In this document: positions 21,244 through 52,189 of the stretch, piece by piece | Position numbering within the stretch: position 1 is the stretch's first letter | How the letters are laid out: each line of letters starts with the position of its first letter | Source of the DNA: Actinomycetes bacterium | GTDB taxonomy: Bacteria > Actinomycetota > Thermoleophilia > BMS3ABIN01 | Assembly: GCA_024276735.1 (NCBI GenBank) | Contig: JAJRWQ010000068.1 | Coordinates: forward strand, 1 to 52,189 | Direction of reading: 5' to 3' | DNA length: 52,189 bases | Program-made: the position numbers and the translations under genes | Notes under the pieces: model-generated | Told to the model about the DNA's origin: nothing | Seen by the model: only the letters and a program-made list of their open reading frames with translations | Databases searched by the model: none

Positions 21244-21251
21244 ATTGGGTT

Positions 21252-21353
21252 GGATGCTGGACACTGGATTCTGGATGCTGGAGAGGTGCATCGCGCCTCG
21301 TTCCCACTTGGAAAACCAGGCGATTTTGTCCAGCGTCCAGCGTCCAGCGTCCG
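21252..21353 (-). repeat. Heptamer-armed dispersed repeat, inverted copy
   Basis: Read on the minus strand this has three GGACGCT-type heptamers, TGGAC, a 45-base core and then TCCAGCA/TCCAGAA/TCCAGTG/TCCAGCA heptamers. The core contains AAATCGC and GTGGGAACG at exactly the offsets found in the array at 51611-52053 (20 bases, then GTGGGAACG, then 16 bases). It lies between the divergent promoters of pdxST and guaB3. The whole 21192-21494 gap (303 bases) therefore holds two promoters, this element and the guaB3 leader. Confidence 0.85.
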
Positions 21354-48108: not shown

Positions 48109-48429
<321 letters not shown>

Positions 48430-51044: not shown

Positions 51045-51545
51045 TCAGACCTCCATGCGATGCAGCTCCACGCCCGCCTCGTCCAGCAGCGACGACGCCA
51101 GCTCGTCCGGGTACCCCTCGTCGAAGTAGACGGCGACGATGCCGGCGTTGATGATCATCTTGGCACAGAGGGAACAGGGCTGGTGCGTGCAGTAGATGGA
51201 TGCGCCCTCGATCTTCACCCCGTGCAGCGCCGCCTGGGCGATGGCGTTCTGCTCCGCGTGCAGCGCCCGGCAGAGCTCGTGCCGCTCGCCGGAGGGCACG
51301 CCCAGCTGCTCGCGCAGGCAGCCCACGTCGATGCAGTGGCGAATGCCCCGGGGAGCGCCGTTGTAGCCGGTGGCCAGGATGCGCTTCTCCTTCACCAGCA
51401 CCGCCCCCACCTGCCGGCGCAGGCAGGTGGAACGCGTCGCCACCTGGCGGGCGATCTGGAAGAAGTACTCGTCCCAGGAGGGTCGCGAAGGGTGTTGCGG
51501 CGGGACCGACAGCAGGGATTCCTCTTTCTGGTGGTCGCGGCTCAT
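51045..51545 (-). CDS. dCMP deaminase family protein (ComEB-like)
   Basis: A zinc deaminase of about 166 residues that probably makes dUMP from dCMP. Zinc and catalytic residues are in [13 protein letters not shown] (His and Glu) and [14 protein letters not shown] (two Cys). [20 protein letters not shown] and APRGIRHC are family blocks. I choose ATG 51545 because GGGGA lies six bases upstream; ATG 51551 is the alternative. It is first in a same-strand run that leads through wecA to the ATP synthase. Confidence 0.95.
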
Positions 51546-51575
51546 GACCATCCCCGTCGTTGCTTGCGTTACCCT

Positions 51576-51604
51576 AGGTTAGACGCAAGGAGGCGGGTTT
51601 GCAA
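51576..51604 (-). promoter_or_regulatory. Weak promoter candidate for the deaminase
   Basis: On the minus strand TTGCAA (51599-51604) and TAACCT (51576-51581) are 17 bases apart. Both boxes are only partial matches. The repeat array begins a few bases further upstream, as the inverted copy at 21252 also does near a promoter. Confidence 0.35.
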
Positions 51605-51610
51605 GAAAGC

Positions 51611-52053
51611 GGATGCTGGATTCTGGATGCTGGACACTGGACCAAATCGCTCGGGTCTCGTTGTGGGAACGGGAGTTGGGGGTTTTATCCAAAGTCCACC
51701 ATCCACCATCCACCATCCAACTCAGACCCTGCCCCTGGACAGTGGATCTGGATTCCGGATGCTGGATTCTGGATGCTGGATGTTGGACTCTGGATGCTGG
51801 ACCAAATCGCTCGGGTCTCGTTGTGGGAACGGGAGTTGGGGGTTTTATCCAAAGTCCACCATCCACCATCCACCATCCAACTCAGACCCTGCCCCTGGAC
51901 AGTGGGTCTGGATTCCGGATGCTGGATTCTGGACTCTGGATGCTGGACCAAAACGTTCGTGTCTTCGTGTGGAAACGAGAGTAGAAGGTTTTATCCAGCG
52001 TCCAGCGTCCAGCGTCCAGCGTCCAGAGTCCAGAGTCTGTTGTTATCCAGCGT
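51611..52053 (+). repeat. Array of three heptamer-armed repeat elements
   Basis: This 508-base gap (51546-52053) is almost entirely repeat. Unit 1 is 51611-51756 (146 bases), unit 2 is 51757-51916 (160 bases) and unit 3 begins at 51917. Each starts with GGATGCT/GGATTCT heptamers (4, 6 and 4), then TGGAC, a 45-base core with GTGG(G/A)AACG and ending GGTTTTA, then TCCA heptamers (TCCACCA in units 1-2, TCCAGCG and TCCAGAG in unit 3). Bases 51637-51756 and 51797-51916 match at 119 of 120 positions. The array ends at the stop codon of the right-edge gene. It has no credible gene of its own. Confidence 0.95.
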
Positions 52054-52189
52054 CTAGAATCCGGTCCCCACCACCTCGTTGAAGTAATCGTAGTAGAGCA
52101 CCCGCTGGGAGGCGATCACCTGGCGGCGGTCGGCGGGATTGGACCAGCTGCCGCTCTGGACGTAGGCCTTCACCTCCACCGGGCCGCCG
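52054..52189 (-). CDS. C-terminus of an unidentified protein (cut by right edge)
   Basis: An open frame enters from the right edge and ends at TAG 52056-52054. The visible 44 residues include VEVKAYVQSGSWSNPADRRQ and VLYYDYFNEVVGTGF. This is too little to name a family. The codon use matches a real high-GC gene, and the stop lies where the heptamer repeat begins, so the last few residues may derive from the repeat. Confidence 0.6.
   Translation of the reverse strand, partial: GGPVEVKAYVQSGSWSNPADRRQVIASQRVLYYDYFNEVVGTGF

Follow-up and report, generated by a model that had tools for sequence, protein, structure and literature searches.

Heptameric repeats have long been noticed in bacteria without a function or mechanism. 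In Xanthomonas, G-rich arrays of GGGAATC or (GGGANTN)n units, usually four to an array, occur in convergent pairs that make up inverted repeats, in 70 and 75 cases (Rehm et al. 2015, PMC4692102). They are intergenic, lie on average 28 nt from the 5' neighbouring ORF versus 160 nt from the one downstream, and no function has been found for them (PMC4692102). Other heptamer arrays are those of TAACTGA in Beggiatoaceae and of GGGACCG and MTYCTGA in Geobacter metallireducens, both described, in the sections cited here, as multicopy and of unknown function, the former direct and mostly upstream of start codons (PMC4679880) and the latter partly within genes (PMC2700814). Two classes of dispersed palindrome are also relevant. 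REPs and BIMEs are short, multicopy, intergenic palindromes, mostly downstream of genes and clustered, that are presumed to be moved in trans by RAYT/TIRYT proteins (Di Nocera et al. 2013, PMC3733652), and bacterial MITEs are non-coding, palindromic, dispersed elements with conserved ends and a variable interior (reviewed in PMC10969869).

The 52,189-nt window, by which we mean the whole stretch of DNA analysed, carries three tandem units with opposite heptamer arms at 51611-52053, as the original prediction had described. TGGAC and TCCA are separated by exactly 45 nt in 3/3 units (46 nt from TGGA to TCCA), GTGG(G/A)AACG occupies the same place in all three cores, and the arms differ by whole heptamers, the left arm of unit 2 exceeding that of unit 1 by 14 nt; all of this agrees with the prediction. 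Although all three units are present, the site provides two independent cores rather than three, since units 1 and 2 are near-identical duplicates. They form a recent tandem duplication of 160 bp, detected by TRF at 51611-51948 (period 160, 94% matches). The predicted list of copies was right for the three units but missed three further features of the window (Table 1): a copy in a divergent spacer, a degenerate copy between atpB and atpE whose core is unlike the amplified one (similarity p 0.475 versus shuffles), and a half-element, an arrangement that recurs at paralogous genes on contigs C20 and C102.

Table 1. Heptamer-armed elements in the window, and sites in the same genome where a heptamer contains a stop codon.
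Feature	Position	Strand	Covariance-model match (E)	Description
Unit 1	51606..51720	+	51631-51698 (5.5e-19)	AAAG-CGGATGC end unit, left TGGANNC arm, core 51642-51687, right TCCA arm
Unit 2	51743..51880	+	51791-51858 (7.7e-19)	Core 51802-51847; nearly identical copy of unit 1 with 14 nt more in the left arm
Unit 3	51907..52039	+	51937-52004 (2.8e-17)	Diverged core 51948-51993; right arm of TCCAGCG/TCCAGAG units
Half-element TCCAGCGTCTAGAATCCGG	52044..52062	+		Includes stop codon 52054-52056 of the right-hand minus-strand gene; read from the sequence
Further copy	21251..21353 (about)	-	21272-21339 (9.3e-14)	Divergent pdxS-guaB-type spacer; core 21283-21328 is the family core on the minus strand
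Degenerate copy	48363..48428	-		Between atpB and atpE; AAAGCGGATGCTGGA - 44 nt - TCCAACTTCC
TAGACGC-stop sites	Window 52044-52062; G000:C37 near 2436; C20 near 31630; C102 near 19270			Genes: transketolase-like on C37; paralogous genes on C20, C24 and C102 ending FNEVVGxGx

The element is not a chance occurrence in the source genome G000, an assembly of 1.61 Mb in 120 contigs with a completeness of 89.6%. The pattern TGGANNNTGGAN{30,60}TCCANNNTCCA gave 42 overlapping matches in the 1.61-Mb genome versus 0 for the reversed control, and the same pattern with spacers of 1-29 nt had no match there. A covariance model, which the prediction had suggested building, was constructed from 16 copies and located 37 places on 13 contigs at E<=1 after merging of strands, 33 of them at E<=0.01, so that the proposed genome-wide search for further copies did find them. 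Of the 21 spacers with elements, 8 are found no more than 1 kb from the end of a contig, compared to ~15% expected at random placement; the assembly therefore probably breaks at these repeats, which makes 37 a lower bound. No Rfam family matched the element, and a search for carriage on plasmids or phages gave no match under a low-complexity filter that may hide heptamers. At G000:C78:11300-12800 (L175), beside tRNA-Ser/Arg genes, a 122-nt tandem unit combines one core and a right arm with GGACTTCCTACGGTGGCCAGCAGATGCTTGATGATG; the left arm of this composite has given way to other sequence; at L180:270-490 (contig C98), TCCACCA arrays followed by CCATCCTCATAAAACCCCTCGATGAGGCAAGAGCGCC occur in two direct copies, as a longer repeat unit that lacks the family core.

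In its usual form the element reads CGGAYNC-(TGGAYNC)3-TGGA-(46-nt core)-TCCA-(GNRTCCA)3-GNRTCCG; it is ~110 bp long, palindromic and has no gene of its own. This architecture is closed, with four heptamers per arm of which the outermost is usually CGGA. Arm copy number had been described as varying by whole heptamers, but it is not free: 27/52 arms number exactly four units, counted outward from the innermost TGGA. The 143 outer units follow the pattern YGGAYNS, any base being accepted at position 6, with G at position 3 in 141 and A at position 4 in 139; arm recognition needed three of the four TGGA bases, which favours conserved arms but does not alone make positions 3-4 differ from positions 1-2. 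Neighbouring units within an arm are just 63% identical at positions 5-7.

Among the 27 cores measured in the source genome, 15 are exactly 46 nt long and 22 fall within 44-47 nt, and most are homologous (p<=0.005 against shuffles). The consensus of the core with one heptamer on each side is TGGACGCTGGATAAAATCGCTCGGGTnTCGTnGTGGnAACGAGACTTGAnGGTTTTATCCAGCATCCA. This consensus is nearly palindromic, GTCTCGTT and AACGAGAC flanking GTGGN and AAAATC standing opposite GGTTTT, and the GTGG(G/A)AACG motif singled out earlier is the apex of this palindrome. The core tree requires between 139 (parsimony) and 177 (ML) substitutions versus about six indels. We considered a rule on core length as such; indels on the tree are few, but no length rule is required. 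By eye, the outlier cores of 66, 53 and 51 nt hold internal tandem duplications of ~19, 7 and 4 nt. The prediction of a fixed core length describes the source genome, while lengths vary freely across related genera and other phyla. Fixed length reflects inheritance of one amplified palindromic core rather than a general rule, because loops of 0, 7, 11 and more nt stand at the same gene junction in other genera.

Each copy folds strongly as RNA (z-scores -5 to -11), as expected from the original prediction, because the fixed bases of the two arms are complementary. The hairpin is under no pairing selection, either in the core or at the variable arm positions. Across the 16 copies, core pairs were kept in 74.7% of cells versus 76.0% with shuffled partners, and 6 double changes were observed in the core versus 12.0 in shuffles. 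At the variable arm positions, left and right matched at 0.615 within an element versus 0.625 between elements (P 0.62). Pairing is not maintained, and the motif YGGAYNS is kept. With core pairs at the level of shuffles and arms without covariation, the palindrome is an ancestral feature that is being lost from the core, in contrast to the heptamer motif, which is preserved.

The measured copies are intergenic or overlap the last codons of a gene, and the distance to stop codons or tRNA 3' ends has a median of about 26-28 nt. In the source genome the modelled part lies mostly 1-28 nt from the nearest 3' end; in relatives, median distances are 27.5 nt for 3' ends and 120 nt for 5' ends, and the element is nearer the 3' end in 19/28 tandem spacers. 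Gene calls for these distances, in the source genome and relatives, came from a simple codon-position model and are not curated. Two element-bearing spacers lie between divergent genes, and the orientation of the core relative to the neighbouring gene is mixed. Many of the 38 matches in relatives adjoin a tRNA, and on contig C41 of the source genome tRNA-Tyr, tRNA-Thr and tRNA-Met each have one element behind them, with the same core subtype in these three successive spacers. By eye, four genes have their TAG stop within a TAGACGC heptamer, and the element may thus encode the final residues of these proteins.

Weaker matches are found in other genera of the family (9/19 genomes including the source), which have the arms in common but not the core. 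Between atpB and atpE, genera g1 (that of the window), g2, g3 and g4 have heptamer hairpins, whose loops measure 44 nt in g1, 11 nt in g2, none or more in g3 and 7 nt in g4; in g6 this junction has short spacers without heptamer arrays, most of them with an ordinary hairpin or no hairpin at all. In several genera some sort of hairpin thus separates the two genes, built from heptamer arms in four and from other sequence elsewhere. In the Tyr-Thr-Met tRNA cluster, elements occupy spacers in g1 and three g3 genomes, among the genomes with elements being G010 and G002, and spacers of 3-110 nt without heptamer arms are found in g6, G003 and G007. In G016 the second spacer of the cluster holds an element and the first no more than TCTGCTTTTAT; arm types seem to be swapped between sides in G010 and G016. 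The prediction had proposed to look for empty sites; at the same tRNA spacers other genera lack the element, a comparison at the level of genera. Some sites are common to genera with the element sequence there replaced, and positions shared at atpB-atpE and in some tRNA spacers imply that many copies are old. A complete element splits one copy of the GGGGACGTTCTTT repeat on contig C111, ACT preceding the element and CACT following it. This is an insertion, possibly with a 3-bp duplication; of the target duplications that had been suggested as a check, this one was seen once only and, at 3 bp, is not proof. These sites favour dispersal of whole elements together with sequence turnover at old sites.

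A scan of species genomes for TGGANNCTGGA-N44-47-TCCAGNNTCCA returned at least 113 stretches, where ~15 were estimated by chance, and 101 of the 113 matches listed had at least one further heptamer in phase. The matches listed include Acidobacteria, Chitinophagaceae, Saprospiraceae, Desulfobacterales, Methylomirabilota, Chloroflexi, Stutzerimonas, Halomonas and others, and the arrays in other phyla have lineage-specific units (TGGAGTC, TGGAAGC, TGGAAAC, TGGATAC) and varying core lengths. Heptamer-armed elements similar in form, though not necessarily by descent, occur in many bacterial phyla. By eye, the matches in OM182/Pseudomonadales (L105, L129) resemble integron attC sites, and four others (L055, L065, L113, L124) look like chance. 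The genome of Chitinophagaceae bacterium CP_BM_RX_R9_32 (G073) has many inverted TGGAGTC/TGGAGTT arrays with short, non-homologous loops.

We give slightly better than even chances to the reading that the units are a non-autonomous, dispersed mobile palindrome of MITE/REP-like type whose arrays are recognised by a putative protein. This reading rests on the 37 places on 13 contigs, the mostly homologous cores, the four-unit arms with a CGGA end unit, the placement at 3' ends, the tRNA spacers with the element in g1/g3 and without it in g6 and G007, the interrupted repeat on C111, and the shared core subtype in the C41 spacers. Motif conservation without covariation in core or arms, together with mixed core orientation, is as expected for a DNA element with recognised ends. 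A putative enzyme or recombination system would recognise two opposed heptamer arrays, through the constant YGGAYNS positions at a 7-nt period, and insert copies in trans. Arms would stay intact in active copies, while the core, palindromic when the family spread, would only decay; tandem copies would arise by later duplication, and arms would change by whole heptamers. Once transcribed, the element would form a strong hairpin behind the upstream gene, probably as a harmless or mildly useful 3' spacer, and would be retained for long at some places such as the atpB-atpE junction. We consider it doubtful, though conceivable, that these elements belong to an undescribed class of mobile palindromes spanning many phyla, with degenerate (N)GGANNC inverted terminal arrays at a strict 7-nt period and a putative transposase or recombinase that targets gene and tRNA ends.

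In the loci examined, there was no transposase gene enclosed by heptamer arrays. Two long array enclosures contain frames of 484 and 474 aa that by eye look like glycosyl hydrolase and SelA. The one Y1_Tnp gene detected in the genome (G000:C100:4993-5958; L032:1471-2436; 321 aa) scores above the cut-off for Pfam Y1_Tnp and below it for the NCBIfam REP-associated transposase, with a weak DnaA-C-like match at its C terminus. It is flanked by GGGGACGTTCTTTCC / GGGGACGTTCTTTCCTAATATT repeats unrelated to the heptamer arms, and as an owner of the arms it was rejected because its terminal repeats do not match. Solo copies of those repeats adjoin heptamer elements on C111, C37 and C18; the Y1 repeats and the heptamer elements share sites, with no sign in the sequences compared of the Y1 enzyme acting on the arms.

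Against the mobile reading stand the lack of a transposase with these ends in the loci examined and the single 3-bp target duplication; concerted change at old sites could also mimic spread. An explanation that dispenses with recognition altogether is that of passive simple-sequence repeats, in which slippage grows the arrays, template switching inverts them, and exchange through the arms, be it recombination or gene conversion, spreads one core among existing arrays. Among the long simple-sequence repeats of bacteria, heptamers are the most frequent, and slippage has been put forward for them (see PMC4692102 and PMC4679880); the whole-heptamer differences between arms, the local tandem duplications and the apparent swaps of arm type in G010 and G016 would all fit. 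Slippage, however, predicts neither four units per arm, nor the CGGA end unit, nor five conserved positions with a free sixth; the low identity of adjacent units argues that the arrays are not freshly slipped, and placement just behind genes is unpredicted as well. We therefore regard this explanation as unlikely.

A position 12-28 nt past stop codons and tRNA 3' ends is what would speak for a functional RNA hairpin, be it a stabiliser of mRNA 3' ends, a cistron or tRNA processing site or a terminator, kept by selection. The atpB-atpE hairpins of several genera, the strong folding and the copies in relatives that end in ATCCGCTTTTT point the same way. A structured RNA with conserved secondary structure was nevertheless rejected, since neither core nor arms have compensatory changes at paired positions and core double changes are fewer than in shuffles. 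Core orientation to the upstream gene is mixed, two spacers separate divergent genes, Rfam has no match, and the GC-rich hairpin plus T run of an intrinsic terminator is absent at the window copies (51400-52189), all of which leaves a role as selected RNA decidedly improbable. The heptamers bear a loose resemblance to sites of a GGA-binding RNA regulator of the CsrA type. A strict 7-nt period with YGGAYNS conserved free of pairing constraint would also suit non-mobile arrays of binding sites for a chromosomal DNA-binding protein or regulator, and four is the usual count in Xanthomonas too (PMC4692102). Such stationary arrays would have no need of a homologous core, their presence would not be expected to differ between genera, and no candidate protein is known here; we think them very unlikely.

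Compared with the systems described so far, the family supplies testable handles in its closed architecture, a motif kept without pairing, tRNA spacers with and without the element, and its position behind genes. Should the arms be read by a protein, proteins of that class may also account for the inverted arrays that the scan detected in Acidobacteria, Bacteroidetes, Desulfobacterales, Methylomirabilota, Chloroflexi and Stutzerimonas/Halomonas. That the family was not recognised in the original prediction was largely justified, although convergent heptamer arrays had been reported in Xanthomonas (PMC4692102) and the wider MITE/REP-like class is known. The Xanthomonas arrays are the closest published description that we found in the open-access literature, sharing opposed GGA-centred 7-nt units, an intergenic position near the end of the upstream gene and a usual count of four (PMC4692102). 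Their units, however, contain GGG and can form quadruplexes, and many arrays are single, whereas the units here are YGGAYNS with two G only, and CGGA end units close the arms around a homologous 46-nt core of a kind not described in Xanthomonas (PMC4692102). The TAACTGA and Geobacter arrays have other units and, in the sections cited here, no core between opposite arms (PMC4679880, PMC2700814). As an intergenic, clustered multicopy palindrome behind genes the element is REP-like, but a REP measures 20-40 bp and carries an unpaired GTAG or CGTC tag (PMC3733652), compared to ~110 bp, CGGAYNC ends and no tag here, and a REP transposase is flanked by its own repeat while the Y1 gene has other terminal repeats. 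Its length, lack of coding sequence, inverted arms, conserved ends around a variable interior and 37 places are MITE-like; unlike a MITE, it ends in arrays of degenerate heptamers where a MITE has a single terminal inverted repeat. A target duplication is suggested at one element, and no parent transposase with the same ends turned up in the loci examined. Motif conservation without pairing, the closed end-unit architecture, placement in tRNA spacers and the spread across phyla appear to be undescribed, and also new are a homologous palindromic core amplified in one genome and sites with and without the element between genera.
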